A DNA stretch of 64,000 nt, taken from NCBI RefSeq assembly GCF_026460885.1, contig NZ_JAOVZW010000023.1, positions 62,001-126,000 on the forward strand. The letters are read 5' to 3'. Each line of letters starts with the position of its first letter. Position 1 is the stretch's first letter. Below the pieces are notes generated by a model that was not told where the DNA came from, made no database searches, and saw only the letters and a program-made list of their open reading frames with translations. The position numbers and the translations under genes were made by a program. This document shows positions 43,942 through 62,618 of the stretch, piece by piece. Source of the stretch: Chryseobacterium formosum (GTDB lineage Bacteria; Bacteroidota; Bacteroidia; Flavobacteriales; Weeksellaceae).

Positions 43942-44640
43942 TTAATCAGCAACATTTAATGCAATTTCGATATCTCTGGTCACTTTTTTAAGAGAAGAAT
44001 ATTTTGCATCACAAACTGAGGTCGTCAAAACATACTCGCCTTTTTCTACCATTACAAAATTCTGTCCATTTGGGGGAACATCAAGATTGTAATATTTTTT
44101 TCCACTGATTTTTACAATCAATCGGCATTTAGATTTATTTTTAATATTAATATAAGCTTCATTATCATTAGGATCATTATTAAAAAGATGCGTTAAATAA
44201 GAAGCTGTTTTTTTTGCATCAGCACTTGGCTCAGATTTCTTACTTGAACTTCCTACTGCAGCATAATTTACTGTGCGTTGTGGCGTTGCAGCTTTAGAAT
44301 TAGACGCTAAATCTTTTCCTTTATTAAGCTCACTATTGCTTACTATTTTTTCAATTTTATCTTTGCTGATTGGTCTTATAGTAGGCTTAGCCTCTATAGA
44401 ATTATCTGCCATAATAATATAAATTAGTTTTCTTTTTAACTTATCGTTTTTTTCGTGTCCTGGATTTTGTTTGATAAAACCTGCAATAATTCTTGCTTCC
44501 GCAGTACTTTCTGCTTCTTCAAGTGTATAAATAATAACAGTTTCTTTCTCTGCAACGACTTTGGCTTTGGCTTTTTTCTTCTTTTGAGCAAAGCCTATAC
44601 TGAAGATTGATAGGAATATAATTAGAAATATTTTTTTCAT
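43942..44640 (-). CDS. Secreted two-domain protein, first of a four-member family
   Basis: This 232-residue protein has a signal peptide (MKKIFLIIFLSIFSIGFAQ) and a Lys-rich start to the mature part. A helical region around residues 45-80 (EARIIAGFIKQNPGHEKNDK) is followed by a low-complexity middle. The C-terminal beta domain carries NIKNKSKCRLIVKISGKKYY, NLDVPPNGQNFVMVEKGEY and VCDAKYSSLK. That C-terminal domain recurs in the genes at 60493, 62153 and 62679. The family function is unknown. It may correspond to a Chryseobacterium-type DUF, but I did not verify this. It is divergent from tsf. Confidence 0.8.
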   Translation of the reverse strand: MKKIFLIIFLSIFSIGFAQKKKKAKAKVVAEKETVIIYTLEEAESTAEARIIAGFIKQNPGHEKNDKLKRKLIYIIMADNSIEAKPTIRPISKDKIEKIVSNSELNKGKDLASNSKAATPQRTVNYAAVGSSSKKSEPSADAKKTASYLTHLFNNDPNDNEAYINIKNKSKCRLIVKISGKKYYNLDVPPNGQNFVMVEKGEYVLTTSVCDAKYSSLKKVTRDIEIALNVAD

Positions 44641-44788: not shown

Positions 44789-45613
44789 ATGTCTTATTCA
44801 CCAGCTGCTGCAGACGTAGCAAAATTGAGAAACCAAACAGGTGCAGGTATGATGGACTGCAAGAAAGCTTTAGTTGAAGCAGAAGGAGACTTCGAAAAAG
44901 CAGTTGATATCCTTAGAAAAAAAGGACAAAAAGTTGCAGCTAACAGAGCTGACAGAGATTCTTCTGAAGGTGCTGTAATCGCTAGAGTAAACGAAGATAA
45001 CACTTTAGGTGTTGTAATTTCTCTAAATTGCGAAACTGACTTTGTTGCTAAAAACGAAGCGTTCATCGAGCTAGCTTACGAAATTGCTGAAATGGCTATT
45101 TTCGCTGCTACTAAAGAAGAATTATTGGCTACAGATTTCCACGGAATGACTGTTGCTGAAAAATTGATCGAGCAAACTGGAGTTATCGGTGAGAAAATCG
45201 AGATTGGTGCTTTCGAAAGAATTACAGGACCTTTCTTAGGAGCTTACATCCACGCTGGAAACAAAATCGCTGCAATCACTTCTCTTTCTGCAAAAGTAGA
45301 CGGAGCTGATGAAGCTGCTAAATCTGTTTCTATGCAAGCTGCTGCAATGAACCCAATTGCACTTGACGAAACTTCTGTTTCTCAGGAAACTATCGACAAA
45401 GAATTGGAAATCGAAAGACACAAACTTACTGAAGAAGGTAAGCCTGCAAACATTATCGATAATATCTTGAAGGGTAAAATGCAGAGATTCTACAAAGACA
45501 ATACTTTGGTACACCAAGATTTCATCAAAGACAGTTCTATTTCTGTTGCTGATTACGTAAAATCTGTAAACGGAGACCTTAAAGTAACAGGATTTATCAG
45601 AGTTAGCTTATAA
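44789..45613 (+). CDS. tsf: Translation elongation factor Ts
   Basis: This 274-residue guanine-nucleotide exchange factor for EF-Tu has an N-terminal UBA domain (VAKLRNQTGAGMMDCKKALV at about residues 9-28), the core with TDFVAKNEAFIELAYEIAE, and the C-terminal region (KGKMQRFYKDNTLVHQDF) of the exchange domain. rpsB, normally upstream and co-transcribed, is about 18 kb away on the other strand here, and tsf carries its own promoter and terminator. Confidence 0.97.
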   Translation: MSYSPAAADVAKLRNQTGAGMMDCKKALVEAEGDFEKAVDILRKKGQKVAANRADRDSSEGAVIARVNEDNTLGVVISLNCETDFVAKNEAFIELAYEIAEMAIFAATKEELLATDFHGMTVAEKLIEQTGVIGEKIEIGAFERITGPFLGAYIHAGNKIAAITSLSAKVDGADEAAKSVSMQAAAMNPIALDETSVSQETIDKELEIERHKLTEEGKPANIIDNILKGKMQRFYKDNTLVHQDFIKDSSISVADYVKSVNGDLKVTGFIRVSL

Positions 45614-45637: not shown

Positions 45638-45670
45638 AATCCCGATGATTTTTTCATCGGGATTTTTTTT
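45638..45670 (+). terminator. tsf terminator
   Basis: AATCCCGATGA pairs with TCATCGGGATT around a 5-nt T loop and is followed by eight T residues. Confidence 0.88.
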
Positions 45671-45813
45671 GCATAAAGCTCTTTATGATATTAATAAAGC
45701 ATAAAGTATTTTTTTGAAATTTCGCAAGTATATTAAATTATAATTAAATGTTAAAAACATTACGTAAAAATTTGATTATTAATATGTAAATTTGTCGCCC
45801 CTAAAACTGAGGC
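45671..45813 (+). promoter_or_regulatory. Spacer before first giant protein, with -7 box at 45787-45794
   Basis: TAAATTTG at 45787-45794 lies 20 bp before the ATG. A TTG at 45772 is only 12 bp away, which is too close for the consensus. The rest of the spacer holds no gene. Confidence 0.4.
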
Positions 45814-48800
45814 ATGAAAAGATTTCTACTTATTATTTGTACATTTTGGTGTTTAATCATAAATGCTCAACTTGATACAGAACATTGGTTTGCTCCAATG
45901 TCTGCAAAAGCCGGAACTAACGGATTGGAAGGATATTTATATTTATCTACCGACGAAGCAACTCCTTTTGCTGTTCAGATTTTTAATAACAATACATTAT
46001 ACACTACTGTTCAGGTAAGTAAAAACAATCCTGCGCAAGTTATTATTCCTAATAACTTTTTAGTTGCATCATCGCAATCACAATTGTTTACTTCTAACAA
46101 TATGGGATTAAATGTAAAAGGTTCAAAAAAATTCTTTGCCAATTACAGGTTTGCAATGCCTAATCATGCCGAAATTTTAACTTCAAAAGGTGCAGCAGGT
46201 TTAGGAACTACATTTTATGCGGGTGTTGCTCCAATTACAGGATCAGAAGATCACATGAATGCAACAATCGGAGTAATAGCAACTGAGGACAATACCGTTG
46301 TGACTATTTCTGGTTACAATCCAGCTATTACTTTTTCGGATGGAATTTCTTCTCCAACAAGAACTTTTACACTTAATAAAGGAAAATCTTACATTTTAGA
46401 TGTTGTAAGTTCGTGGTCAAATGCCAATAAAACAGGTTTAGTAGGAGCTAAAATTGTTGCGACAAAAGCAATTTCTGTAACAAACGGAAACTTTAACGCA
46501 GCTTATACTACTCAAAACCTTACCAATAATGACATTTTGATGGATCAGGCAGTACCTGTTGATCGTTTAGGAAAAGATTTCGTAGTGGTAAAAGGAAACG
46601 GAACGGTAACTTCTCAAATGGAAACCGCTTTAATTATTGCTACAGAGAACAATACACAGATTACATTTAACGGAACCGGAGCTGCAATAACTCTAAATGA
46701 AGGGCAATATTATCAAGTTCCAAGTGCAAGATATCAAAATCAAGGTAATGGACATTACAATATGAATATTTCTGCAACCAAAAATGTTTATGTTTATCAA
46801 TTACTTTCTGGCGCAACCAACGGAAACGAATATGCTTCCGGAGGAATGAATTTCATACCACCTTTAAGCTGTTTTATGCCTAATAAAATTGATGAAATTG
46901 GTTTTATTAACAGAATTGGAGGTCAAACTTTTGCAACAAGATTAAATATTATCACCCAAACCGGAGCAACGGTAACTTTAAACGGTGGCCCAATTGCAGC
47001 AGGAAACGGACCCTATCCTGTAACAGGAAATCCAAACTGGGTAAGCTACTCTATTCAAAATGTGACAGGAAATATTACTTTAAATTCCACAAAAGCTATG
47101 ACTGCAGGAATCGCTGCAGGAAGTGGTGCCGTAGGATATGGAGGGTATTTTTCAGGATTCTCTTCTGTTCCCGCAATTACGAAAACTGGTGACTGTTACG
47201 CAGGAATTGAGCTTCAGGTTGATAACAATTATGATGCTTATCAATGGTATTTAAATGGAGTTGCGATTACCGGAGCTACAACTTATTTTATTAATCCTGA
47301 ATTGTATGGAGCAGGAGCATATACTTGTTCGGTAACGAAAAATAACTGTGAAACAAAATTGACGACGATTTATAACTACACATTATGTCCGCCAATTTCA
47401 ACAACAACTTATACAATCGGATCTTGTAATACAAAAGTAATTACGCCTGCATTTACAAGCTCTACACAAAACATTGTTCCTTCATTAACAGCAATTATTG
47501 CTCAGCCAACTAACGGAACAGCAACTGTAAATTCAACTACAGGTCAAATTACATACACACCAAATGCAACGACCGTAAATACTACAGATCAGTTTATTTA
47601 TTATATTCAAGGAAACGGAAATCCATTTGCTTTTGAATATTTTAAAATTATAATTAATACAGATGCTCTTCAGGTAAATAATGCTTCAATAAGCATTTGT
47701 AACAGTACTTCAGGAAATGGAACCTATAATTTGACAACTGCGAATGTAACATCGGCTGTTGGAGCAAGTATTACTTATTTTACCAATTCAAATTTGACCG
47801 GTCAAATTGCTGTTCCTACAAATTATACAGGACCTGCAGGAATTATTTACGCTAATGTAACTTCAACTTACGGATGTTCTAAAGTTGCGCAGATTACATT
47901 AATCATGAACCAATCTCCAAATATCAATACAAGTGCTTATAATGCAGAGTTTTGTGATGATAATTTTTCTGGAGTTATCAATATAAATTTTGCAACCGTT
48001 ACTCCTCAAATTGTTACAAATTCAGCGAGTTTTATTGTAAAATATTATTTAAATCAAGCTGATGCAACCGCAGGAAATAATAATACATTACCAACTAACT
48101 GGAATTACACTTCAAATACAACAGTTTATATAAGAGTTGAAAGTACAAACGGTTGTCCTCCCGCTTTTGGACAAATCAATTTTGTGATTAAAAATAAGGT
48201 TCCTTTGTTAACTCCTACACATGTATTAGAAATTTGTGACACAGACATGAATGGTTCTGAAACTGTCAATTTAATGAATTATAAAAATATTTTCACCACA
48301 GATCCTGCAACCTCGGTTACTTTCCATAGTAGTTTGGCAGATGCACAATCAGGAGCAAATGCAATCTCTGCAACACAAACAATCAACAACGGAACAACAG
48401 GAACTTTTTATTTAAGATTCACTAATGCAACACAGTGTTTTAATACAGCTAATTTAGCTATCAAAGTAAATGCTGTTCCTAATATCAATATTGCGAATTT
48501 TAACGGTAATCTTTGTGATGATAATTTTGACGGAATTGTAAACGTAAATTTTGCGACCATAACTCCACAAGTTGTAACAAATTCAGCAAATTTTACAGTA
48601 AGATATTACTTAAGTCAAGCCGATGCAACTGCAGGAAACGGGAATACACTTCCAACCAACTGGACGTATACTTCAGCAACAATTGTTTACATAAGAGTGG
48701 ATGGTACAAGTACAACTTGCCCTACTGCTTTTGGACAAATTAATTTTACCGTAGGTAACAAACTGACTCTTCTAACAACAAATGTAACGACACAAGTTTG

Positions 48801-49716
48801 TGATAATGATTTAGATGGCTCTCAAAGTGTAAATCTTAGTGATTATAAAAATCAATTTACGGCAGATCCGTCAGTTACCCTTACTTTCTATTCTACTTTA
48901 GCCAATGCGCAAGCTGGAACTAATGCCATACCTGCAACTCAGGTTATTACAACTTCAGCAACTTTCTATATTAGATTTACAAGTAATAATGCTTGTCCGA
49001 ACATTGGAACTCTAACAATTAGTTTAAAATCTCCAAAAAAATCAAGTACTTTACAAGATCAGACTATTTGTCTAGACGCAAAAGCAATTCTTAATGCAGG
49101 TAATGGATTTACATCTTATTTGTGGAGCACAGGAGCAACTACCTCGTCAATTACCGTTGGTGTTGGAACTTACTTTGTAGATTTAGGATTTAACGGATGT
49201 ATTTACAGACAAACAGTAACCGTAACAGCCGCTCAAGCTCCAACAATCACAAGCATTGTTGTTACAGGAACAAGTGCAACAATTAATGTTACAGGAGGAA
49301 CTGCACCTTATCAATATTCATTAAACGGTTCAGATTACCAGAGTTCAAATGTATTCTCAGGATTAACAAGAGGACCGCACAAAGTTTACGTAATTGGGAG
49401 AGATGGATGTCAACCCGTGATTAAAGATTTCTTAATTTTAAATTTAATTAATACAATTACTCCAAATGGGGACGGAAGAAATGATGTTTTAGATTATTCT
49501 GACTTAAAAATTAAGGATCAAGTAAATATTGAAGTGGTTGATAGATACGGAGCAAAGGTTTACAAATCATCCCCAAATAACTACAAATGGGATGGAAAAT
49601 CAGGTGGCAGAAATCTACCAACAGGGACTTACTGGTATATTATCAGATGGATTGAACCGGACACAAAATTGCCAGTTTCTCATTCTGGGTGGCTTTTAAT
49701 TAAGAATAGAGAATAG
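45814..49716 (+). CDS. Giant IgGFc-binding-like surface protein, subtype A, T9SS type B
   Basis: This 1300-residue protein has a signal peptide (MKRFLLIICTFWCLIINAQ), then DTEHWFAPM and an IgGFc-binding-like N-terminal region (about residues 20-450; VIATEDNTVVTISG, LMDQAVPVDRLGKDFVVVKG, NVYVYQLLSG). Next comes an Ig-like stretch (DAYQWYLNGVAITGA), then two consecutive copies of a ~187-residue module starting CDDNF (47950-49030). It ends with a CHU_C sorting domain (about residues 1213-1300; NTITPNGDGRNDVLDY, TGTYWYIIRW, GWLLIKNRE) that directs export by the type IX system. It is probably an adhesin; the ligand is unknown. Confidence 0.88.
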   Translation: MKRFLLIICTFWCLIINAQLDTEHWFAPMSAKAGTNGLEGYLYLSTDEATPFAVQIFNNNTLYTTVQVSKNNPAQVIIPNNFLVASSQSQLFTSNNMGLNVKGSKKFFANYRFAMPNHAEILTSKGAAGLGTTFYAGVAPITGSEDHMNATIGVIATEDNTVVTISGYNPAITFSDGISSPTRTFTLNKGKSYILDVVSSWSNANKTGLVGAKIVATKAISVTNGNFNAAYTTQNLTNNDILMDQAVPVDRLGKDFVVVKGNGTVTSQMETALIIATENNTQITFNGTGAAITLNEGQYYQVPSARYQNQGNGHYNMNISATKNVYVYQLLSGATNGNEYASGGMNFIPPLSCFMPNKIDEIGFINRIGGQTFATRLNIITQTGATVTLNGGPIAAGNGPYPVTGNPNWVSYSIQNVTGNITLNSTKAMTAGIAAGSGAVGYGGYFSGFSSVPAITKTGDCYAGIELQVDNNYDAYQWYLNGVAITGATTYFINPELYGAGAYTCSVTKNNCETKLTTIYNYTLCPPISTTTYTIGSCNTKVITPAFTSSTQNIVPSLTAIIAQPTNGTATVNSTTGQITYTPNATTVNTTDQFIYYIQGNGNPFAFEYFKIIINTDALQVNNASISICNSTSGNGTYNLTTANVTSAVGASITYFTNSNLTGQIAVPTNYTGPAGIIYANVTSTYGCSKVAQITLIMNQSPNINTSAYNAEFCDDNFSGVININFATVTPQIVTNSASFIVKYYLNQADATAGNNNTLPTNWNYTSNTTVYIRVESTNGCPPAFGQINFVIKNKVPLLTPTHVLEICDTDMNGSETVNLMNYKNIFTTDPATSVTFHSSLADAQSGANAISATQTINNGTTGTFYLRFTNATQCFNTANLAIKVNAVPNINIANFNGNLCDDNFDGIVNVNFATITPQVVTNSANFTVRYYLSQADATAGNGNTLPTNWTYTSATIVYIRVDGTSTTCPTAFGQINFTVGNKLTLLTTNVTTQVCDNDLDGSQSVNLSDYKNQFTADPSVTLTFYSTLANAQAGTNAIPATQVITTSATFYIRFTSNNACPNIGTLTISLKSPKKSSTLQDQTICLDAKAILNAGNGFTSYLWSTGATTSSITVGVGTYFVDLGFNGCIYRQTVTVTAAQAPTITSIVVTGTSATINVTGGTAPYQYSLNGSDYQSSNVFSGLTRGPHKVYVIGRDGCQPVIKDFLILNLINTITPNGDGRNDVLDYSDLKIKDQVNIEVVDRYGAKVYKSSPNNYKWDGKSGGRNLPTGTYWYIIRWIEPDTKLPVSHSGWLLIKNRE
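47950..49030 (+). repeat. Tandem ~560-bp module duplication inside first giant gene
   Basis: Two copies start at TTTGTGATGATAATTTT-type words near 47950 and 48511. They encode CDDNFSGVININFATVTPQI and CDDNFDGIVNVNFATITPQV, each followed by a CDxDxxGSxxVNL segment. The copies are diverged but collinear. Confidence 0.7.
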
Positions 49717-49764
49717 ATTTTAAATTTTATTTATGATTTATTAACAATATATTAAAATTTATTC

Positions 49765-49772
49765 TAATTTTG
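49765..49772 (+). promoter_or_regulatory. -7 box of second giant gene
   Basis: TAATTTTG lies 24 bp before the ATG at 49797. Confidence 0.4.
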
Positions 49773-49796
49773 TAGAAATCCTAATTCCATAATTTT

Positions 49797-52700
49797 ATGA
49801 AAAGATTTCTACTAAGTTTTGCAGTAATGCTTCTGACAATCAACAGTCTTTTTGCACAAAGAGATACTGATCATTGGATTGCACCCTATTATAATTCAGG
49901 GGGAACATATTCTACTGCCGTTTATCTGTCAACAGATTCTGTAACGCCATTTGCAGTGAATATTTTCAGTAATAATGTGCAGATCAATACCACTCCTATT
50001 ATGGTGAGTAAAAACAATCCTGTTACTTATGATGTGGGAACTTATATTTCTACAGCTTCCACAAGTGACGGTTTTAAAGTTCTTAATAAAGGATTGTATT
50101 TAAAAGGAGCAAAACCTTTTTATTGCACTTTAAGAACGGCGCAAATCTCTCATGGCGAAATTGTAACAAGTAAAGGAAAAGCTGGAATAGGTAAAGAGTT
50201 TTATGTTGCAAATACACCTTACGCGGGAAGTACAGCTACCCTTTACAGTTTTACTGCAGGGGTTATGGCTACCGAAGACGCTACAACTGTGACAGTTAGC
50301 TGGCCAGGAACAATAACGTTTTTTGGACAACCGGCCACCCCACCGTCCAATCCCTATACTTTTACATTAAATAAGGGGGAATCATTTATATTTGCAGGAA
50401 ATGCTGCAAGTGCCGCTCCGTTTATGGGAGCTAAAATAACTTCCACTAAACCAATCACGCTCACTAATGGTAACATGAATGGAAATTTTGGAAATTCACC
50501 TTCAGGTTCAGATGCAATTCTTGACCAGTCTGTCCCTACCGAAAGATTGGGAAGCACTTTTGCAATGGTGAGAACACTTTCCACATCTTCAGACCTTGAA
50601 GGAGGTATAGTGATTGCTACGGAAGATAATACGCAAGTATTTATAAATGGATCATTGATACCTGCAGCTACTATTAACCAGGGACAATGGTACCGAATTC
50701 CAGGTTCGTCATATCAGTTGCAAGGAACTAGTGGACATTACAACATGCTCGTATCTACTTCTAAAAACGTTTACTTATATCAGTTGGTTTCTGTAGATGA
50801 TAGCAATGCCACTTGTGGATTTAATTATATTCCTCCCCTCAACTGTTTCCTACCTAGAAAAATTGATGAGATTGGTAAGGTAAATGAAATGCCAAACACA
50901 TCATCTACTATCACTCTTAAACTTAATATTCTTACTGAGGCAGGAGCTACGGTTACTTATAGTACTAATGGAGGAACACCAATCACACCAACGGCAGCAC
51001 AAGGGCCTTATCAGCTTCTAGGAAATACAAACTGGGTGACTTATGCAATAGAAGGTGTTACAGGAAATCTAACTATTCAATCTACAAAAGCGGTTACAGC
51101 TGGCGTAAACGGAGGATATAGCACTGCAGGCTACGGTGGTTATTTTGCAGGATTCTCTTCAATACCAGTTATTGCAAAACAAACTGGAGATTGTATTCCC
51201 GGTATCATTTTGGAAGTTGACGACAGCTATGAAACTTATCAGTGGTATTTGAATGGTGGTATCATTACAGGAGCTACATCTGCTACATATACACCAGCAG
51301 TTGCAGGGGATTATACTGTAAAAGTAACGATGGGTACGTGTCCACCAGTTACTACACCAATATATAAAGTATTTACATGTTTAACTAATACCGTTAAAAC
51401 TTTAAATATCTGCGGTACGAAAGCTATTATACCTGCATTTACTAGCTCAACGCAAACACCAGTACCGGGAACTGTACAAATCATTACGGCACCAACACAA
51501 GGTACTGCTACACTAAATCCTGCTACAGGAATTATTACCTACGTACCAAATGCAGGCTACTTAGGGGCAGATAAGATTATTTATAAATTCTGTGGAAATG
51601 CTGCTGAATTTGTAGATTGTGAACAAATTACACTAAACCTAAATGTTGTACCATTTGTACTTACAGATGTAACAATCAAAACTTGTCAATATGCCGGCAA
51701 AGGATATTTTGATTTAACTACTGCGCCTGTAACTTCTTACAGCCCTACAACTAAAAAATTCTATCCAACTTTAGCAGACTTAAATGCAAATACAAACCAA
51801 ATCAGTAATCCTACAAATTATTTCTTTGGATTAGGATCAGTATATGTACAAGTAACTACAGACGAAGGATGTATTGGAACGGCAAAAATCACTCTTGATT
51901 TCTACCCTACTCCAGTTGTAAATGAAACTACATTAACGGTATGTTTTATTGAAAATAATGAAACAAAAGGAGTATTTAATCTTCCAAATGCGAATGTTAC
52001 ATCACAAACTCCAGTTACTAAAAAGTATTACCCAACGTTTACAGATGCAAGCAACGGAACGAATGAAATAACACTTCCAGTAGATATGTATATTTCAGGA
52101 GACGGTGCTGTTTATGCAAGAGTATTTAATAGTAACGGATGTTATGCAATTGCAAAAATCAATCTTAAAGTTACTCCTCCAAAGAAATCATCTTTATTGG
52201 TTGACAAATATATCTGTATTGATAGCAGAACTACATTAGATGCTGGAGCAGGATATCAGTCATACCAATGGAGTACTGGTGCAACTACGCAAACAATTCA
52301 AGCAGTACCAGTAGGAGATTATTGGGTTATTCTTCAAAATGCAGGATGTTATACTAAACAAACGGTTAGTGTGAAAAAAGCTTTGGAGCCAGTAATTACT
52401 TCAATAGAAATTTCTAATAATACAGCAACAGTTATTGTAACCGGAGGTACTGCACCTTTCAAATATGCGGTAGACGGAACATCAACTTGGCAGGATTCTA
52501 ATGTATTTACAAATTTGAGCAGAGGTCAACATACTTTCTATGTGAAAGACGAGTTCAACTGTTCTCCGGTATCTGTAGAAATTACAGTTCCAAATCTTGT
52601 AAATGCAATTACTCCAAACGGAGATAAAATAAATGATTTCATCGATTATAGTGAATTAGCTTACAAAGACAATCTTTCTTTCACGATTTATGACAGATAT

Positions 52701-52874
52701 GGTAATAAAGTCTTTGTCGGTGATAAATTCAATAACTACAAATGGGATGGAACTCAATCCAATAAAAAGATTGTTACCGGAACATATTGGTATCACATCA
52801 ATTGGACAGAACCAAATGCTACTAAAACTCCAATAAAATACACAGGTTGGATTTTAGTTAAGAATAGAGAATAG
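49797..52874 (+). CDS. Giant IgGFc-binding-like surface protein, subtype B, T9SS type B
   Basis: This 1025-residue protein has a signal peptide (MKRFLLSFAVMLLTINSLFAQ). Its first residues nearly match the previous gene, but it then has RDTDHWIAPYY. The IgGFc-binding-like region (about residues 25-470) contains GVMATEDATTVTVSW, LDQSVPTERLGSTFAMVRTL and FNYIPPLNCFLPRKIDEIGK. An Ig-like region (ETYQWYLNGGIITGATSA), a cadherin-like stretch and short Cys-containing modules follow. The CHU_C sorting domain (NAITPNGDKINDFIDYSE to GWILVKNRE) ends it. It lacks the CDDNF module of subtype A. It is followed by a terminator and is probably transcribed alone. Confidence 0.88.
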   Translation: MKRFLLSFAVMLLTINSLFAQRDTDHWIAPYYNSGGTYSTAVYLSTDSVTPFAVNIFSNNVQINTTPIMVSKNNPVTYDVGTYISTASTSDGFKVLNKGLYLKGAKPFYCTLRTAQISHGEIVTSKGKAGIGKEFYVANTPYAGSTATLYSFTAGVMATEDATTVTVSWPGTITFFGQPATPPSNPYTFTLNKGESFIFAGNAASAAPFMGAKITSTKPITLTNGNMNGNFGNSPSGSDAILDQSVPTERLGSTFAMVRTLSTSSDLEGGIVIATEDNTQVFINGSLIPAATINQGQWYRIPGSSYQLQGTSGHYNMLVSTSKNVYLYQLVSVDDSNATCGFNYIPPLNCFLPRKIDEIGKVNEMPNTSSTITLKLNILTEAGATVTYSTNGGTPITPTAAQGPYQLLGNTNWVTYAIEGVTGNLTIQSTKAVTAGVNGGYSTAGYGGYFAGFSSIPVIAKQTGDCIPGIILEVDDSYETYQWYLNGGIITGATSATYTPAVAGDYTVKVTMGTCPPVTTPIYKVFTCLTNTVKTLNICGTKAIIPAFTSSTQTPVPGTVQIITAPTQGTATLNPATGIITYVPNAGYLGADKIIYKFCGNAAEFVDCEQITLNLNVVPFVLTDVTIKTCQYAGKGYFDLTTAPVTSYSPTTKKFYPTLADLNANTNQISNPTNYFFGLGSVYVQVTTDEGCIGTAKITLDFYPTPVVNETTLTVCFIENNETKGVFNLPNANVTSQTPVTKKYYPTFTDASNGTNEITLPVDMYISGDGAVYARVFNSNGCYAIAKINLKVTPPKKSSLLVDKYICIDSRTTLDAGAGYQSYQWSTGATTQTIQAVPVGDYWVILQNAGCYTKQTVSVKKALEPVITSIEISNNTATVIVTGGTAPFKYAVDGTSTWQDSNVFTNLSRGQHTFYVKDEFNCSPVSVEITVPNLVNAITPNGDKINDFIDYSELAYKDNLSFTIYDRYGNKVFVGDKFNNYKWDGTQSNKKIVTGTYWYHINWTEPNATKTPIKYTGWILVKNRE

Positions 52875-52894
52875 AATCTTAAATAATAGAATGA

Positions 52895-52928
52895 AAATAC
52901 CACAACTTAACTGTTGTGGTATTTTTTT
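52895..52928 (+). terminator. Terminator of second giant gene
   Basis: AAATACCACAAC pairs with GTTGTGGTATTT around a 6-nt loop and is followed by a T run. Confidence 0.85.
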
Positions 52929-52983
52929 ATCATAAATTTAATTTTTTTTATATTTTTTTTATAAAACATATGAATTATTACAT

Positions 52984-52991
52984 TATTTTTG
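52984..52991 (+). promoter_or_regulatory. -7 box of third giant gene
   Basis: TATTTTTG lies 21 bp before the ATG at 53013. Confidence 0.4.
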
Positions 52992-53012
52992 TATGAATCC
53001 TAATCCTAGACT

Positions 53013-55862
53013 ATGACAAAACTTCTACTTACTTTTTTAATGGTAATTTTTAGTAGTAATATCCTATTCGCTCAGAGAGACACAGAGCATTGGATAGCGC
53101 CCTACTATGAATCAACCTCTTACACTGGACGAACATTATATTTGTCCACAGATTCGACCACACCTTTTACCGTTACTGTTTATAGCAATAATGTTGCACT
53201 CGGAACAGTGACAATAAGTAAAGGATCTCCTCAAATTTATGCAGTTCCAGCGCAATATATTGCCGGTTCTAGTGTATCTGATGCCTTTAGAGTAATTAAC
53301 AAAGGACTTTATTTGAGTGGAGAAAAGCCATTTTACTGTACACTAAGAATGGCAAGTAGTACAACGCACGCTGAAATCGTTACCAGTAAGGGTAAAGCCG
53401 GTATTGGTAAAGAATTTTATGTAGCGGCAACTCCTTCAATTTATACCTCTACAAGTAACAACTTTACTGCGGGAGTTTTAGCAACAGAAAACAATACAAC
53501 AGTTACTGTAACATGGAGCGCAACTACACCTATAACATTTCTTGGTAGTGCACCTGCAACAAACACCCATACGTTTGTATTGAACAAAGGGCAATCTTTT
53601 ATTTTTGCTGGAAACGGGGCAACTGCTGCAAATATGCAAGCATTTATCGGAGCTAAAATTGTTTCTGATAAACCAATTACTTTGACTAACGGTAACATGA
53701 ATGGAAATTTTGGTACTGTAAGTAATCTTGGTTCTGACTCTATTTTGGATCAATCTGTTCCAGTTGAAAGACTTGGAAATACTTTTGCAATGGTAAGAAC
53801 AAGATCTACTTCTCCAGATGTAGAAGGTGGAATTATAATTGCAACTGAAAATAATACACAAGTATATTTAAATGGTTCTGGAACTGCTGTTGCAACCTTA
53901 AATCAAGGTCAATGGTATAGAATTTCAGGAAGTAATTATATCGTACAGGGCGGAACGCATGCTAATATGTTTATTAGTACTACAAAAAATGTTTATTTAT
54001 ATCAACTTGTAACTGTTGACAACAGTAGTGCAACTTGTGGTTTCAACTACATTCCGCCATTGAACTGTTTTTTACCTAGAAAAATTGATGAAATTGGAAA
54101 AATTAACGAAATGCCTTCCGGTACTGGTGGAGCAAGTGTTGTAGCAAGCGGAACTAATGTAAAATTAAATATTCTTACTGAAGCGGGTGCTGTTGTTACT
54201 TATACCGTTAATGGAGGAGCACCAATAACTCCAACTGCAGCACAAGGACCATATGTAGTGACAGGAAATACGAACTGGGTAACATATGGTATAGAAAATA
54301 TGACAGGAACTGTAGCTGTAGCTTCTAATAAAGCTGTAACTGCAGGAATCAACGGTGGATACAGTACATCAGGATATGGTGGTTACTTTGCAGGTTTCTC
54401 TTCTATTCCACTTATTGCAAAACAGACGGGAGATTGTATTCCAGGCTTAGTTTTAGAAGTTGATGATAGTTATGATACTTATCAGTGGTTTAGAAATGGG
54501 GTAGCAATTCCTGGAGCTACAACCAATTCATACACACCTACCACTGCAGGAAACTATACTGTAACTATTACAGTTGGATCTTGTATACCTGCAACAACGC
54601 CAATCTATAAAGTTTTTACTTGTTTGCAAAAAACAACAAAAACAAAAACAGTTTGTGAAGGTTATTTAAATATTGTACCCGAATTCACAACATCTCAACA
54701 AAATTTCACACCAGGAAGTGTACAAATTATTACACAACCAACAAATGGTACTGCAATATTGAATCCTACAACGGGTGTTATAGGGTATACTCCAAACTTT
54801 GGTTTTGTAGGAAATGATAAAATTGTATATAAATTCTGCGGAAATGATCCTGAGTTTGTAGACTGTGAAGAAATTACACTTACTTTAACAATAGCAGAAA
54901 GCCCTACAGTTAATCCTGCAACATTAAGAACTTGTTTTCTTGAAAGTAATACAGCAACTGGATTATTTAATCTAACAACCGCTAATGTAAGTACACAATC
55001 AGGTATTATTAAAACATATTATCCTTCATTAACGGATGCTCACAACCAGACTAACGAAATTCTAAATTTTGCAAATTATACAGCACCAAATGGTGTGGTT
55101 TATGTAAGGGTACGCAATGCAAACGGATGTTATAATGTTGCTCAGATTACTCTTGTAGTATTTCCTCCAACAAAATCAACAGTTCTTGTAGACAAAGTAA
55201 TTTGTATTGAAGACAGAACTATATTAGATGCAGGTACAGGTTTTTCAAGTTATGAATGGAGCACAGGAGCTACAACTCAAACCATATCTAATGTAGGAGT
55301 TGGTACATATTGGGTGAAACTTAAAACAGGAGACTGTACCACAAAACAGGAAGTTAAAGTATACGCTTCAGAACAGCCGGTAATTTCAAATATTGATGTT
55401 TCAAACAACAGCATTACTATAACTGCAGTTGGAGGAGTAGGACCTTATGAATATTCAATTAACAATAATAATTTTCAATCTTCAAACGTATTTACAGATC
55501 TTCCAAGAGGTGATGTGAAAGTTTATGTAAGAGATACTTTCAAATGTGTTCCGATTGAGGTAAGCATTACAATTCCTAATATTGTAAACGTAATTACCCC
55601 TAACTCAGATGGAGTAAATGATATTTTAGATTACTCAGCTCTTGCTAATAAACCAAATTTAGTTTTCGACATTTTTGATAGATACGGAAACAGAATTCAC
55701 CAAGGAAATAAAGAAAATCGTTATACTTGGGATGGAACAACCAATGGTAAAAAGAGAGTTTCTACAGGAAACTATTGGTTCAGCATCAGTTGGAATGAGA
55801 ATGGACAAGCTAAAACACCAATCAAATTCTCAGGCTGGATTTTAGTTAAAAACAGAGAATAA
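53013..55862 (+). CDS. Giant IgGFc-binding-like surface protein, subtype B, second copy
   Basis: This 949-residue protein has a signal peptide (about residues 1-21, ending ILFAQ) and RDTEHWIAPYYE. Its IgGFc-binding-like region runs parallel to the gene before it (KGLYLSGEKPFYCTLR, DQSVPVERLGNTFAMVRT, CGFNYIPPLNCFLPRKIDEI). Then DTYQWFRNGVAIPGA begins the Ig-like part, and the CHU_C domain (NVITPNSDGVNDILDYSA to GWILVKNRE) ends it. It is the shortest of the four and looks like a tandem duplicate of 49797-52874 with one Cys module fewer. Confidence 0.88.
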   Translation: MTKLLLTFLMVIFSSNILFAQRDTEHWIAPYYESTSYTGRTLYLSTDSTTPFTVTVYSNNVALGTVTISKGSPQIYAVPAQYIAGSSVSDAFRVINKGLYLSGEKPFYCTLRMASSTTHAEIVTSKGKAGIGKEFYVAATPSIYTSTSNNFTAGVLATENNTTVTVTWSATTPITFLGSAPATNTHTFVLNKGQSFIFAGNGATAANMQAFIGAKIVSDKPITLTNGNMNGNFGTVSNLGSDSILDQSVPVERLGNTFAMVRTRSTSPDVEGGIIIATENNTQVYLNGSGTAVATLNQGQWYRISGSNYIVQGGTHANMFISTTKNVYLYQLVTVDNSSATCGFNYIPPLNCFLPRKIDEIGKINEMPSGTGGASVVASGTNVKLNILTEAGAVVTYTVNGGAPITPTAAQGPYVVTGNTNWVTYGIENMTGTVAVASNKAVTAGINGGYSTSGYGGYFAGFSSIPLIAKQTGDCIPGLVLEVDDSYDTYQWFRNGVAIPGATTNSYTPTTAGNYTVTITVGSCIPATTPIYKVFTCLQKTTKTKTVCEGYLNIVPEFTTSQQNFTPGSVQIITQPTNGTAILNPTTGVIGYTPNFGFVGNDKIVYKFCGNDPEFVDCEEITLTLTIAESPTVNPATLRTCFLESNTATGLFNLTTANVSTQSGIIKTYYPSLTDAHNQTNEILNFANYTAPNGVVYVRVRNANGCYNVAQITLVVFPPTKSTVLVDKVICIEDRTILDAGTGFSSYEWSTGATTQTISNVGVGTYWVKLKTGDCTTKQEVKVYASEQPVISNIDVSNNSITITAVGGVGPYEYSINNNNFQSSNVFTDLPRGDVKVYVRDTFKCVPIEVSITIPNIVNVITPNSDGVNDILDYSALANKPNLVFDIFDRYGNRIHQGNKENRYTWDGTTNGKKRVSTGNYWFSISWNENGQAKTPIKFSGWILVKNRE

Positions 55863-55886
55863 TAATTCTTCCACTTAAATATTATA

Positions 55887-55916
55887 AAAACCACGATATC
55901 AAATCGTGGTTTTTTG
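55887..55916 (+). terminator. Terminator of third giant gene
   Basis: AAAACCACGAT pairs with ATCGTGGTTTT around a short loop and is followed by a T run. Confidence 0.85.
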
Positions 55917-55949
55917 TTTATTTTAATAACTATTAACGTATTTTATTAT

Positions 55950-55957
55950 TAAATTTG
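55950..55957 (+). promoter_or_regulatory. -7 box of fourth giant gene
   Basis: TAAATTTG lies 19 bp before the ATG at 55977. Confidence 0.4.
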
Positions 55958-55976
55958 TGATAAAATCAAGTGCAAA

Positions 55977-58900
55977 ATGAAGAAAATTCTATCTTTTTTT
56001 CTTATTTTTTATATATTCTCTACTACATTCGCTCAATTAGATAGAGATCATTGGTTCGCACCTATGGTAGATCGTACAGGAAATCCAAATCCGTATCAGC
56101 GATTATACCTTTCTACAAATCGTACAACTCCATTCGCAGTTACTATTTACAATAATAATGTGGTCATTGGTACTGTAACGATTAGTAAAAATAATCCTCA
56201 GAGATTTGATGTACTCCGCGATTATATTATCACAACTCAACAAACAGATCTTTTTACTACTACTACAAAAGGTTTATATTTAAAAGCAGACTTTCCTTTT
56301 TATGCCAATCTAAGATTTTCTGTTTTCAATCATGCAGAAATTATTACTTCAAAAGGTATTGCTTCAACGGGGACGACTTTTCATGTAGCGACTGCTCCAA
56401 TTACCGTAAATAATGGTATTCTAAATTTTATGACGAGCGTTTTGGCTACAGAAGACAATACAACCGTTACAATTTCAGGCTATAAACCAACTGTACAGTT
56501 TTCAAATGGAACAAGTGGTGCAACAAATCCTACACTTACTTTCACATTAAATAAAGGACAATCTTATATTCTCGACGGAATAGGAAATATTACAGGAAAT
56601 TTTGACGGATTTATCGGTGCTAAAATTGTTGCGACAAAACCTATAAACGTTACCAATGGAAATTTCAACGGTCAATACGCCGGAAACAATCCTACAAGTT
56701 CTGATATTTTGATGGATCAATCAATACCAGTTAGCCAATTAGGAAATACATTTGCATTAGTAAAAGGTAATGGGAATGTGGGAAGTAGTATGGAAGGCGC
56801 TTTGGTTGTTGCGACACAGGATAACACTTTAGTTTACGTCAATAATGAAGGATTACCAATCGCCACTTTGAATACTGGACAATATTTTGTAATTCCCGAT
56901 ACCAAATACCAACTTCAAGGAACTACGGGTCATTACAATCTTTATATTGTAACGAGCAAAAATGCTTATGTTTATCAATTACTCGCTGGAGCAGCAAGTA
57001 CTGGAAATGAAGTTGCAACTGGTGGTTTCAATTTCATTCCAGGGCTAAACTGTTATCTTCCGAAGCAAATTGATGAGCTCGGATTTATTAATGAAAACTT
57101 TGTACATACCAATGTAAATCCTGCAGGAATACTTACAAATCCAACAAAATTAAATCTAATTACAGAAAGAGGTGCCGCCGTTCTTGTAAATGGAGTTCCC
57201 CCTCCTGTAGGAACGGGACCTTTCGACATGACGGGAACCCTAAATTGGGTAACTTATGGTATTCCAAATACAACTGGAACCATCACAGTAACTTCTACAA
57301 AAGCAATCACAGCAGGAATTACAGCAGGAAGTGATGCTGTAGGTTACGGTGGTTTTTTTGCAGGATTTCCAACACAACCTGTTATTTTAAAAACCGGAGG
57401 TGACTGCGTTCCAGGAATTGTTCTTACGGTAGACCCAATTATTTATGAGTCTTATCAATGGTATGTTGGCGGCGTTGCTATTATCGGGGCCACTTCACCT
57501 TCTTATACTCCTACTGGATCAGGAAATTACACTTGCGCTGTTACAATGGGAACTTGCGCTCCGCTTATTACTATACCTTACAAAGTTTTAAATTGTACAA
57601 AACAAAGTGTCGCATCTTACAATATTTGTGATGTAAAAACAATTACTCCGGCTTTCACGACTTCTACACAAACTCCAGTAGCATCGACTGTATCGATTAC
57701 CACACCTCCTACACTAGGAACTGCAGTTATCAATACTGCAAACGGAATTATAACGTACACTGCAACCAATCCAAATGCAGCCGGAACAGATACTTTTGTT
57801 TATACATTCTGCGGAAACAACGTTGATTTTCCGGACTGCGAAACAGTGACAGTGACCATAAATATTCAACCTGTAACATCAAACAATGCAACATTAAATG
57901 CGTGTAATGTAAATGGTGTTGGAACATTTAATCTTACTACGGCAGTTGTGACAAGCAATAATCCGGTTACGATTACTTATTATCCGACTCTAACGACAGC
58001 ACAAAACGAAACTTTAACGGCATTAATTACCGTTCCCACAACATATTCTGCTCCTAATGGAACTATCGTTTATGCAGTTGTAAAAAATAGTACAGGGTGT
58101 AAAAGCATTGCACAAATTACTTTAAATCTTTTTCCTTTAGCCATTGTGACACCTGCAAATATGGGTAATCAATGCGATGAAAATTTAGATGGAACAGTAA
58201 ATGTGGTTTTATCGAACATTACTCAATTAATATTAAATAATCCAGCCTACTTTACCAATGTAAGATATTATGCTCAATTAACAGACGCCAACTTAGGAAA
58301 TAACACGACACTACCCAATAACTGGAGTTACAATACAAATACAACAATTTACATTCGTGTAGAATCTCCTGATGGATGTGCTCCTGTGATTCAACCTGTT
58401 AATTTCACCGTTGGAACTAAGCTAACTTTAATTAAAAATATTTTTTCTACAACTTTTTGTGATGATGATTTAGATGGAATTAAACCAATGAATCTATCGA
58501 CATTCCTGAATGAATTCACTACAGATCCGCTTGTTACAGTAAGTTATCACTCAACTTTAGCCGATGCTCAAAATGATGTATCACCTATAAGTGGAGCTGT
58601 AACACTTACCGGGCTTCATACTTATTACATCAGATTTGAAAAAGCAGGTTTCTGCCCTGATGTTGCAACAATTAGAATTACTCTTAAAACTCCTAAGAAA
58701 TCTGATATTCTTGCTGACCAAGCCATCTGTCCTAAAACTAAAACAATTTTAGATGCAGGATCAGGATTCACCGCTTATCTTTGGAATACGGGAGCTACTA
58801 CTCCATCTATTTCTGATGTAAGTGCAGGAAATTACTGGGTTGACCTTACTTTTGACGGTTGTGTTTACAGACAGTTCGTGAATGTTTCAGAAGCAACTTT

Positions 58901-59399
58901 ACCTGTAATCAAAACAATCGACATTAACGGAACAACAGTAACAATTGGAGTTACTGGAGGAAATCCTGCTTACCAATATTCGCTTGATGGTTTTATTTGG
59001 CAGACATCAAATGTATTTACAAATCTTGCTATTGGTACTTATACGGTTTATGTGAGAGATACTCTTAATTGTGGTATTGTAAAAGAAAACTTCGTTATCA
59101 TTAAACTCATCAACACCATTACACCAAACGGAGACGGCAGAAACGATGAAATTGATTATTCTTCATTAATGAATAAACAGGATCTAGAATTTAGAATTTT
59201 TGACCGATACGGTGCAGAATTATTCCGAGGAACTCCTTCAAATAAATTTACCTGGGACGGAAATATGAAAGGCAGACCTGTTCCTACAGCAACTTATTGG
59301 TACTTCTTAAGCTGGACAGAACTTGGAAATATTACCACCGTAAAATATTCGAGTTGGCTATTGGTAAAACACAGAAACAACAGTCTTTGGGACAAATAA
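55977..59399 (+). CDS. Giant IgGFc-binding-like surface protein, subtype A, second copy
   Basis: This 1140-residue protein has a signal peptide (MKKILSFFLIFYIFSTTFAQ) and RDHWFAPMVDRTG. Its N-terminal region has TSVLATEDNTTVTISGYK, LMDQSIPVSQLGNTFALVKG and NAYVYQLLAG. An Ig-like region (ESYQWYVGGVAIIGAT) follows, then one copy of the CD-x-N/D-LDG module (58170-58670) where the first subtype A gene has two. The CHU_C domain (NTITPNGDGRNDEIDYSS, SSWLLVKHR) ends it with an extra NNSLWDK tail. It is closer to 45814-49716 than to its neighbour. Confidence 0.88.
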   Translation: MKKILSFFLIFYIFSTTFAQLDRDHWFAPMVDRTGNPNPYQRLYLSTNRTTPFAVTIYNNNVVIGTVTISKNNPQRFDVLRDYIITTQQTDLFTTTTKGLYLKADFPFYANLRFSVFNHAEIITSKGIASTGTTFHVATAPITVNNGILNFMTSVLATEDNTTVTISGYKPTVQFSNGTSGATNPTLTFTLNKGQSYILDGIGNITGNFDGFIGAKIVATKPINVTNGNFNGQYAGNNPTSSDILMDQSIPVSQLGNTFALVKGNGNVGSSMEGALVVATQDNTLVYVNNEGLPIATLNTGQYFVIPDTKYQLQGTTGHYNLYIVTSKNAYVYQLLAGAASTGNEVATGGFNFIPGLNCYLPKQIDELGFINENFVHTNVNPAGILTNPTKLNLITERGAAVLVNGVPPPVGTGPFDMTGTLNWVTYGIPNTTGTITVTSTKAITAGITAGSDAVGYGGFFAGFPTQPVILKTGGDCVPGIVLTVDPIIYESYQWYVGGVAIIGATSPSYTPTGSGNYTCAVTMGTCAPLITIPYKVLNCTKQSVASYNICDVKTITPAFTTSTQTPVASTVSITTPPTLGTAVINTANGIITYTATNPNAAGTDTFVYTFCGNNVDFPDCETVTVTINIQPVTSNNATLNACNVNGVGTFNLTTAVVTSNNPVTITYYPTLTTAQNETLTALITVPTTYSAPNGTIVYAVVKNSTGCKSIAQITLNLFPLAIVTPANMGNQCDENLDGTVNVVLSNITQLILNNPAYFTNVRYYAQLTDANLGNNTTLPNNWSYNTNTTIYIRVESPDGCAPVIQPVNFTVGTKLTLIKNIFSTTFCDDDLDGIKPMNLSTFLNEFTTDPLVTVSYHSTLADAQNDVSPISGAVTLTGLHTYYIRFEKAGFCPDVATIRITLKTPKKSDILADQAICPKTKTILDAGSGFTAYLWNTGATTPSISDVSAGNYWVDLTFDGCVYRQFVNVSEATLPVIKTIDINGTTVTIGVTGGNPAYQYSLDGFIWQTSNVFTNLAIGTYTVYVRDTLNCGIVKENFVIIKLINTITPNGDGRNDEIDYSSLMNKQDLEFRIFDRYGAELFRGTPSNKFTWDGNMKGRPVPTATYWYFLSWTELGNITTVKYSSWLLVKHRNNSLWDK

Positions 59400-59536: not shown

Positions 59537-60325
59537 ATGAAGAAACTTATTATTATAATGCTGTTGGTTTTTGTAAGTAAAATTAATGCGCAAAATTTAT
59601 CGGGAGAGGTATTTTTAAGAGACAATTCGGTTTTGTATCTTAATCAGGTTTATGTCACCAATCTTAATACACTTAAAACTGTTCTTACAACTTATAATGG
59701 AGATTTCAATATAAAAGCAGATCCCGGAGATGTAATCCGTTTCACATCAATTGTCACAGAAAGAAAAGATATAAAGCTTACTCCACAAATGTTTAACTCT
59801 AAAAATTTGGTTGAACTAAAAGTGGCGTATCACGATATTCAGGAAGTTGTAATCAGCAGATTCCGCCCTACCGGAAATTTGAGATATGATATGAATTCTC
59901 TTCGTAAAGAAGATAAAGCTTATGCCCTGAAAAAAGTAATTGGTTTACCCGAACCAAAAGGTGACGGAACTTCGCCTGTACTTCCGGTTGCCGGCTTAAG
60001 AGACGGAGGTCTTACTTTTAGCCTTGAAAGTATTTTTGATATTATTTCGGGTGAACGTAAGAAAAAACAGCGTTTAGTAGCTTATGAAAGAATGCATACT
60101 TCCGTTACCAATATTAAAAATTATTTAGGTAAAGATTATTTCACAAGAATTAAAATTCCGGAAAATCTTATTGATAATTTCTTGCAGTTTGTTTATACTT
60201 CAGAAAATATTGAAGTTTATTTACAAGCCGGAAATATTGAAGCGGTAAAATTACCTATCGAAAAATACCTTCCCATTTATCAACGAAGACTTAGAAATTC
60301 TCATCTTCAGGAAGTCATCAATTAA
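59537..60325 (+). CDS. Secreted protein with carboxypeptidase-regulatory-like domain
   Basis: This 262-residue protein has a signal peptide (MKKLIIIMLLVFVSKINAQ), then a CarboxypepD_reg-like beta sandwich (about residues 20-95; LSGEVFLRDNSVLYLNQVYV, TYNGDFNIKADPGDVIRFTS). The rest (about 100-262) is not recognised; it includes RPTGNLRYDMNSLRKEDKAY and a basic stretch (GERKKKQRL). The ATG at 59537 is chosen because a -7 box at 59521 lies inside the longer ORF. It lies directly after the last giant gene and could be functionally linked. Confidence 0.8.
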   Translation: MKKLIIIMLLVFVSKINAQNLSGEVFLRDNSVLYLNQVYVTNLNTLKTVLTTYNGDFNIKADPGDVIRFTSIVTERKDIKLTPQMFNSKNLVELKVAYHDIQEVVISRFRPTGNLRYDMNSLRKEDKAYALKKVIGLPEPKGDGTSPVLPVAGLRDGGLTFSLESIFDIISGERKKKQRLVAYERMHTSVTNIKNYLGKDYFTRIKIPENLIDNFLQFVYTSENIEVYLQAGNIEAVKLPIEKYLPIYQRRLRNSHLQEVIN

Positions 60326-60454: not shown

Positions 60455-60492
60455 AGAGAATTATGAAACCACATCACCAAATCTTTTATTCA

Positions 60493-61272
60493 ATGAAAAA
60501 GTTAGTTTTACTTTTTACCACATTATTATTTGTATCCTTTTCAGCGCAGAAACAAGGCAAAGATTACAGCAATATTCTTAAAAGTAAGAGTATTTATGAA
60601 ATCAATGCTTTTCTGAGAGATGCTCATCCCGATGATCCGCGAAGATCTGTACTCAAACCAAGAGTAATGGATTTTATGAAAGATTACATCAAAAATGCTC
60701 CTCCGGGTGACAAAAAAGTACGAGAAATGCAGGACAATCTTGCAAGACTGAAAAGAGGACCGTCTACAAAAGTTTCTTTTGAGGAGATGAATGCAATGAT
60801 TAAGCAGAAACAGATTTTAAAATATCAAAAACAGCTACAGGTTGGTCAGTCAGCAGTTGTTTATACACCAAGTTCAGCGCAGAATGTCTATGTTACAAAC
60901 ACAACTGCAACCAAAAACACCAAAGTAATTGCAGATACAGAAGCCTCAGAATTTAATATGTTGATGGGAGAAAACCCTACTGAACATAAAAATAAAACGG
61001 TAAAAATCTTAAACTCATTATTTGATAACGATCCCAATGCGAAAGAATGCATCGTGATGATCGAAAACAAATCTGATTGTAATATTATTGTAAGAATTGA
61101 GGGTATTGGAAATACAAAATACAGACTTCCGATTCCTGCTCATGGAGACAATTCTATTGTGGTAGAAAAAGGTGATTATCTTTTCACAAGTATTGTTTGT
61201 GGAGCACAATATGCATCGCAAAAAACTATTCAAAAACCGTTGATGGTTGCTTTGGGAAGCTCTTCAAAATAG
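60493..61272 (+). CDS. Secreted two-domain protein, second of the family
   Basis: This 259-residue protein has a signal peptide (MKKLVLLFTTLLFVSFSAQ). The N-terminal helical domain contains SKSIYEINAFLRDAHPDDPR and a middle linker is rich in Gln and Thr. The C-terminal domain (about residues 185-259; MIENKSDCNIIVRIEGIGNT, PIPAHGDNSIVVEKGDY, VCGAQYASQK) is shared with the genes at 43942, 62153 and 62679. The ATG at 60463 would add MKPHHQIFYS before the signal peptide, so 60493 is preferred. Function unknown. Confidence 0.8.
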   Translation: MKKLVLLFTTLLFVSFSAQKQGKDYSNILKSKSIYEINAFLRDAHPDDPRRSVLKPRVMDFMKDYIKNAPPGDKKVREMQDNLARLKRGPSTKVSFEEMNAMIKQKQILKYQKQLQVGQSAVVYTPSSAQNVYVTNTTATKNTKVIADTEASEFNMLMGENPTEHKNKTVKILNSLFDNDPNAKECIVMIENKSDCNIIVRIEGIGNTKYRLPIPAHGDNSIVVEKGDYLFTSIVCGAQYASQKTIQKPLMVALGSSSK

Positions 61273-62126: not shown

Positions 62127-62134
62127 TAAATTTG
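62127..62134 (+). promoter_or_regulatory. -7 box of lipoprotein family member
   Basis: TAAATTTG lies 18 bp before the ATG at 62153 and over an in-frame TTG at 62132, arguing against that TTG as start. Confidence 0.4.
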
Positions 62135-62152
62135 AACCTTGAAAAAATCAAC

Positions 62153-62608
62153 ATGAAAAAGCTTTTATTATTTTCTTTTGCAGTTACACTATTTCTGAAT
62201 AGTTGCAGCACCACAAATTATAATTCCAAACGACCAATATATAAGTCTTCTTCAGTCAATCCAAATAGCGGAATAAATATTAATCCTAACGCACAAACAG
62301 AAAGAGAATATCAGGCTTTACTAAAAACTTATAAACCGGAAACTGCAGAAGTTTTAAACAGTTTGCTTAATGATTCTTCAAGCAGCCTAAATGTATCTAT
62401 TTCAGTAGAAAACAAATCGACTTGCAATATGGTTTTAACAATCAGCGGAAATAATTATTTCAAAAAAATCCCAATTGGAATTAATAAAATCGGTTCAGCA
62501 ATGGTTCCAAAAAATCAGAACTATAATCTTTCGGGAATGCTTTGCAACTCGGTTTATCAGAAAACAAAATTTGTTTCAAATTCTTTTAGTATAAAGTTAT
62601 CCAATTAG
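62153..62608 (+). CDS. Lipoprotein, third member of the two-domain family
   Basis: This 151-residue protein has a lipoprotein signal (MKKLLLFSFAVTLFLNSC, Cys18). It has a short Ser/Asn linker instead of the N-terminal domain, a helix (EYQALLKTYKPETAEVLNSL) and the C-terminal family domain (SVENKSTCNMVLTISGNNYF, LCNSVYQKTK). It is the shortest and most diverged member. The start is the ATG at 62153, not the in-frame TTG at 62132. Function unknown. Confidence 0.8.
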   Translation: MKKLLLFSFAVTLFLNSCSTTNYNSKRPIYKSSSVNPNSGININPNAQTEREYQALLKTYKPETAEVLNSLLNDSSSSLNVSISVENKSTCNMVLTISGNNYFKKIPIGINKIGSAMVPKNQNYNLSGMLCNSVYQKTKFVSNSFSIKLSN

Positions 62609-62618
62609 TTAAATTATT

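Follow-up and report, generated by a model that had tools for sequence, protein, structure and literature searches.

The window analysed here is a stretch of 64,000 nucleotides from Chryseobacterium formosum (RefSeq assembly GCF_026460885.1, contig NZ_JAOVZW010000023.1, positions 62,001 to 126,000), and its block of four consecutive forward-strand genes, A to D, at 45814-59399, is the subject of this report (Table 1). An earlier note on this DNA had drawn four open reading frames (ORFs) of 1300, 1025, 949 and 1140 residues at exactly this span; its description of the products as giant is an overstatement. The N-terminal part of each protein matches PF17517 (IgGFc_binding) at 115.9-143.5 bits against a gathering cut-off of 25.6 (E values: A, 1.1e-41; B, 8.5e-37; C, 2.9e-33; D, 5.6e-37), and all four match both CHU_C models, PF13585 and TIGR04131, above their curated cut-offs, which bears out the note on both domains. 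Ig-like modules form the stalk between this head and the sorting domain in all four proteins. Judged by eye only, the N-termini are hydrophobic, end in A-Q in every case and resemble signal peptides, and the motif D(T/R)(E/D)HW(F/I)AP, an opening that the note had also recognized, comes next. Aligned with A, the other three proteins show identities of 46% (B), 45% (C) and 50% (D). Neither the family nor its predicted secretion route is out of the ordinary; the unexpected part is whole-head replacement in a fixed core block. From the comparisons below, we consider it probable that head cassettes are exchanged on constant stalks within a core, tsf-linked block of surface-type proteins.

In the genome itself (4.5 Mb, 63 contigs) the PF17517 matches are exactly these four genes. 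Among 148 Chryseobacterium genomes, this one counted, the family is present in 147 at an E value of 1e-5 or better, with 0-11 copies per genome (median 4; four copies in 52 genomes, three in 35, five in 30), so that the block is not the fixed single-copy arrangement that would have spoken against the earlier note. A family sample had PF17517 in 64 of 120 genomes and 18 of 33 genera, and a phylum sample had it in 27 of 118 genomes, five of the 10 from the same order carrying one copy each. In 11 regions from other genera of the family tsf occurs eight times, directly adjoining the array in six (loci L127-L132) and about 2-5 kb off in L123 and L124; it was not seen in L125, L126 and L133, nor in five order-level regions, one of which (L122) is cut by a contig end. 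Loci L129-L131 read A-B-B-D or A-B-C-D beside tsf. The block is core to the genus and its arrangement is older than the genus, because tsf-linked arrays are also found in other genera of the family.

Gene order is fixed. Loci were retrieved with an A-led query, and genes were labelled A to D by their best BLAST match to the four of the window. Among 76 loci of relatives, an A-type gene comes next in all 71 where tsf is visible, and D precedes the right neighbour in all 35 that show it. The 53 complete blocks read ACCD (20), ABCD (12), ACD (9), ABD (6), AABCD (3) and three others, two of which include fragments of a broken gene. A tree of stalk plus C-terminal domain (CTD), built from 115 of the 116 middle genes (one is without a usable tail), divides with support 100 into 66 and 49 rows. 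This split represents gene position, because genes of the first kind (M1) stand ahead of every gene of the second (M2) in 44 of 44 loci holding both; a further 19 loci have M1 only, and one has M2 only, its M1 being fragmented. Secondary arrays from multi-copy genomes contain extra M1- and M2-like genes, without tsf. A PF17517 gene in one region lacking tsf (L142; G105 C5, from 4954) shares 98% of its tail with M1 of C. polytrichastri (L108), against a best head match of 70%.

The genealogy of the heads conflicts with that of the stalks. The head tree contains 258 rows (84 A, 58 D, 34 B, 82 C), derived from 256 ORFs of at least 850 residues minus two without the D..HW motif plus the four of the window. 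All 84 A heads form a single clade and so do all 58 D heads, each with support 100, and the B- and C-labelled heads intermingle. Head classes were drawn by average linkage at a threshold of 0.38, which we chose ourselves, the main three holding 49, 44 and 15 rows. On the stalk tree these classes need 25 changes, where the least possible is seven, and starred branches require at least 10 for each of the two largest classes. The head tree accommodates the classes with seven changes, the minimum, while position takes nine there, at least six of them forced. Because class and position conflict across the two trees, heads appear to have passed from lineage to lineage and from one middle position to the other. 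M1 and M2 apparently draw on one head pool, with the A and D heads staying outside it.

Sister pairs were defined by protein identity of at least 85% in the unrelated neighbouring gene at 43942-44640, using 54 loci (the others are without this gene, the A start or the D end); 47 of the 74 pairs share a layout, and the 27 that differ in layout were dropped. The first 460 mature residues were taken as the head and the last 230 as the C-terminus, and a replacement was called when identity in the head was at least 12 points lower than in the C-terminus. By this measure the head falls below the C-terminus in 29 of 85 middle-gene comparisons, in 7 of 47 A comparisons and in 0 of 47 D comparisons, and a C-terminus lower than the head by as much occurs in 0 of 179. 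Counted by eye, these correspond to about seven separate situations: at M1, the L064 group versus the L066 group, L091 versus L049, L084 versus L101, and two copies within L107; at A, L069/L079 versus L096 and L066 versus L067; and at M2, L046 versus L050. Between C. herbae (L064) and Chryseobacterium sp. JM1 (L070), head and tail identities are 97/92% in A, 57/95% in M1, 96/96% in M2 and 97/94% in D. The window, set against L043, L046 and L050, has A and D heads at 89-95%, a B head at 71-74% and a C head at 61-77%. Head identity at fixed tail identity is bimodal in A (at a tail identity of at least 85, 17 of 80 pairs lie at 55-70 and the range 70-80 is empty) and nearly so in M genes (45 of 159 pairs at 50-60, 10 at 60-75 and 104 higher), and no D head of 52 pairs with tail identity of at least 85 falls under 80. 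In the M2 genes of L043 and L046 the synonymous divergence (dS) is 0.06 in the head versus 0.39 in the tail, as if the head had recently been shared between species.

The edges of the replaced piece were scanned in 60-nt windows numbered from the D..HW codon. Between the M1 genes of L064 and L066, identity is 100% at -143, drops to 81 and 71% across the signal peptide, stays at 43-75% from +34 to +1338 and is 70-95% thereafter; similar profiles, though with gradual 3′ edges, were obtained for L049 versus L091 (M1), L046 versus L050 (M2) and L084 versus L101 (M1), and the M1 genes of L043 and L046 form a mosaic of greater complexity. The swapped piece appears to start near the signal peptide or the mature N-terminus and to extend to about the GYGGYFAGF motif, which takes in PF17517, with the promoter region staying similar. 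Tails are homogenised within the single genomes of L059, L092 and L107.

Heads are under purifying selection. The median ratio of nonsynonymous (dN) to synonymous divergence in unreplaced heads is 0.041 for A (40 comparisons), 0.041 for D (47) and 0.051 for M (56), and in the tails of this set 0.076, 0.068 and 0.055, respectively. The 29 replaced M heads have a dN of 0.386 and a dS of 1.74 (undefined in six), versus 0.068 and 1.14 in their tails. What carries weight here is how strongly unreplaced heads are constrained, together with the higher dS of replaced ones and with head identities that, at fixed tail identity, are bimodal in A and nearly so in M. Fast point evolution of the heads was also considered and was dropped, unreplaced heads being no less constrained than tails.

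Much of this must be weighed against an ordinary core family of type IX secretion system (T9SS) surface proteins, which would have arisen by old tandem duplication with loss and gain, its heads diverging by point mutation and no cassettes being exchanged. Drifting copy number, the age of a block whose layout recurs beside tsf in L129-L131, and the spread of PF17517 through the phylum sample would all suit such a history, which we nevertheless regard as unlikely: unreplaced heads evolve slowly (dN/dS of 0.04-0.05), head identity is bimodal or largely so at fixed tail identity, divergence starts and stops near domain edges, and the same head classes reappear on unrelated stalks.

Several observations weigh against the exchange of head cassettes. 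The sister pairs overlap in species and their counts are not independent; the window and its nearest named relative, Chryseobacterium luquanense (L042, 97% identity over A), show zero replacement; several 3′ edges are gradual, starting between about nt 1000 and 1800; and part of the dN excess in replaced heads is built in, because replacement was called from protein identity. The tail tree has 37 open forks of 112, and the class threshold was of our choosing. No donor was found: similar heads (88-93%) on differing tails (at most 75%) occur in seven pairs, all of them A, and in nine regions from four of the nine multi-copy genomes the secondary arrays gave best head matches of 58-76% to the main-array set.

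AlphaFold2 modelled protein C of the window (86 rows) with a predicted local distance difference test score (pLDDT) of 90.1 and a predicted template modelling score (pTM) of 0.63, and its head alone (109 rows) with values of 93.8 and 0.93 as a mostly beta structure. The modelled stalk (residues 443-835) resembles chains of Ig-like domains, its best match having a Z of 9.8 and a root-mean-square deviation (rmsd) of 14.7 over 279 residues, as for small domains of one kind in a row. GhpA, the grappling hook protein of Aureispira sp. CCB-QB1, ranks among the top structural matches. This likeness is one of common Ig-like modules in the stalk, with the head outside it, and GhpA is far larger, PDB titles citing residue numbers over 5000. 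The fold search with the whole model gave matches that cover the stalk only. For the head alone, the best Foldseek match has an E value of 3.5e-05 at a template modelling score of 0.13, and the best VIA match, to proteins other than GhpA, a Z of 4.7 and an rmsd of 4.5 over 125 residues; these matches establish neither that the fold is new nor that it is known. A PDB sequence search with the bacterial profile matched no chain to the head part; none of the 18 sequence matches listed is best aligned in the head, and those to Fc receptors fall on an Ig-like stalk module at E values of 0.58 or worse. Head repeats 2 and 3, which carry 'ATExNT' motifs, are homologous (HHalign 96.6%, E value 6.6e-10). 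A four-fold internal repeat was rejected, the other five repeat pairs being below 4% in HHalign and only the 2/3 pair supported.

Head-cassette exchange, the reading that we prefer, can be set out as follows. Four proteins of the same plan (an all-beta PF17517 head of about 440 residues, an Ig-like stalk and a type B sorting/anchoring domain) are predicted to be secreted by the T9SS and would be displayed on the outer membrane. The order A-M1-M2-D after tsf, and the stalks, would descend vertically. Recombination would replace the M1 and M2 heads, and the A head within its own pool, as near-intact cassettes bounded at about the signal peptide and close to where head meets stalk, and D would retain its own. 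The head is most likely the outward binding part, so that its exchange would alter recognition (be it of surfaces, glycans, phages or other cells) and leave export and anchoring untouched; binding specificity could change with it, as could exposure to competitors, predators or phages, and selection may favour ligand or antigen diversity. The block would thus encode surface proteins for adhesion or recognition whose heads, each able to be swapped except that of D, would bind a putative ligand.

Many type IX surface proteins of Bacteroidota have no known purpose. Here, in a core locus, sequence alone separates an exchangeable part, the head of some 440 residues, from constant ones, namely the stalk, the anchor and the last gene, and the head is therefore indicated as the specificity part. 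Natural allele pairs such as L064/L070, with 95-99% identity in three neighbouring proteins and 57% in the M1 head, suit direct probing of what bacterial PF17517 domains bind. We suggest, tentatively and as the less likely extension, that the block beside tsf serves the whole genus as a polymorphic recognition locus, whose head alleles would predate the species that carry them, be traded between lineages and middle positions, and, displayed on constant stalks between constant or nearly constant bookends, set the specificity of self/non-self contact, surface choice or phage adsorption. What we take to be the closest pattern known to us is that of TraA of the myxobacteria. According to PMC6372800, TraA is a surface receptor whose polymorphism determines recognition. 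The likeness goes no further than the pattern, and TraA is a single-locus system of another phylum. Our search of the open-access literature found no account of a bacterial PF17517 array or of head exchange.

The T9SS exports proteins with a type B CTD, which PorP-like proteins may then retain on the cell surface (PMC9143113), and SprB has such a CTD too. The genome of the window has 14 CHU_C proteins, SprA (TIGR04189) and one PorP/SprF match (PF11751), all above cut-off; several cargo proteins may share this one PorP-like anchor. We judge it improbable that the four serve gliding as SprB-like adhesins transported by the motility machinery. The type B CTD and a hint of the SprB repeat in protein C (24.6 bits, below the cut-off of 28) would suit that role, but the repeat (PF13573) is above cut-off in none of the four. 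Set beside SprB and other type B cargo, the block has the CTD in 4/4 proteins, with SprA and a PorP/SprF-like gene in the genome; the head differs, and the genome has 14 CHU_C proteins to one PorP/SprF match. Two clusters of three and four CHU_C matches elsewhere in the genome, at C62:197394-203902 and C1:63428-73023, are without PF17517.

The heads of all four proteins match the family of FCGBP above cut-off, and a review (PMC9354016) notes bacterial homologues of the FCGBP N-terminal domain. The same source gives FCGBP vWD repeats, where the proteins here have Ig-like modules and a type IX sorting domain. The accessible main text of a paper on colony spreading in Flavobacterium collinsii (PMC9950754) makes no mention of IgG. 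'IgGFc' is a family label and not evidence of Fc binding. Adhesins for host interaction that bind IgG Fc or mucus, as this name would have it and the earlier note had proposed in part, are highly improbable: PF17517 is matched by all four and some relatives bear host-associated names, but the family is near-universal in the genus, at a constant site beside tsf and in species named for soil, herbs, moss or a reactor, and none of the PDB matches listed has its best alignment in the head. Core presence speaks against a host-specific function, although a host life is possible for some members. Thus the observation of the earlier note is confirmed and its interpretation half right: architecture, promoter boxes and room for recombination held, the last in the far more specific form of head-cassette exchange, and host interaction did not.

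The boxes in question are of the form TAnnTTTG, one ahead of each gene. Of 254 family genes in relatives, 248 have this -7 box in the 80 nt directly upstream, whereas the opposite strand has it in 7 of 254 cases, and so the box is beyond chance. A strict promoter, TTTG-N16-21-TAnnTTTG, stands upstream of only 1 of 254 genes, and the claim is limited to the -7 box. Terminator-like stems stand after tsf, B and C, where the earlier note had claimed strong terminators for two of the four genes; stems on their own prove little, because the whole region has 12 terminator-like sites versus 8.4 (sd 2.6) in shuffles. As regards expression switching by invertible promoters, 17 pairs of inverted repeats (arms of 16-25 nt, 75-94%) lie in the region, but none looks convincing or, by eye, frames a promoter once the terminator-like stem is set aside. 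A slippage switch at the junction of head and stalk was considered and not adopted: of the middle genes 16 of 111 have a run of at least seven identical bases within 60 nt past the head, of the A genes 1 of 81 and of the D genes 0 of 57, and B and C of the window have no such run. In two Chryseobacterium genomes M1 is frameshifted at an A-run between head and stalk (L082, from 13409; L100, from 13424), leaving a head-only frame of 475-477 residues, and relatives hold intact copies; this may be real or an assembly slip.

Table 1. Features of the tsf-linked block and its surroundings (positions in the window)
Feature	Position	Strand	Basis or remark
tsf (elongation factor Ts)	44789..45613	+	Constant left neighbour; A-type gene directly next in 71/71 loci showing tsf
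Terminator-like stem-loop after tsf	45638..45664	+	Terminator scan
-7 box (TAnnTTTG) of gene A	45787..45794	+	Motif search
Gene A, first of block	45814..49716 (1300 aa)	+	PF17517 head, long Ig-like stalk, type B CTD
Gene A head region	45874..47172 (residues ~21-453)	+	PF17517 match at residues 128-432; apparently swapped between some relatives
Gene A internal stalk repeat	47951..48709	+	Copies 47951-48148 and 48512-48709, 79% identical
Gene A CHU_C type B sorting domain	49441..49701	+	Profile match
-7 box (TAnnTTTG) of gene B	49765..49772	+	Motif search
Gene B, middle position M1	49797..52874 (1025 aa)	+	Stalk clusters with M1 stalks
Gene B head cassette, class h2	49863..51167	+	Profile match, edge and head-class analyses
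Gene B CHU_C domain	52596..52859	+	Profile match
Terminator-like stem-loop after B	52894..52925	+	Scan scored minus strand only; + strand also enters a T run
-7 box (TAnnTTTG) of gene C	52984..52991	+	Motif search
Gene C, middle position M2	53013..55862 (949 aa)	+	Stalk within 49-row M2 clade
Gene C head cassette, class h2	53079..54410	+	Edge and head-class analyses; AlphaFold2 pLDDT 93.8, pTM 0.93
Gene C CHU_C domain	55581..55847	+	Profile match
Bidirectional terminator-like stem-loop after C	55886..55914	+	Terminator scan
-7 box (TAnnTTTG) of gene D	55950..55957	+	Motif search
Gene D, last of block	55977..59399 (1140 aa)	+	PF17517 and type B CTD; none of its heads seen replaced
Gene D head	56040..57380	+	PF17517 match; end placed by head length of L042 ortholog
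Gene D CHU_C domain	59103..59360	+	Profile match
Constant right neighbour	59537..60325	+	D immediately upstream in 35/35 loci showing it

The product of the right neighbour has a weak NCBIfam match to BamP (43 bits against a cut-off of 230). A DUF6759 protein is encoded at 60463-61272 and, one gene later, two short ORFs lie at 62132-63401, relatives of which accompany the block in several loci. The length of gene A products among relatives ranges from about 1110 to 1619 residues, which, together with the 79% identical stalk repeat, suggests gain and loss of modules.

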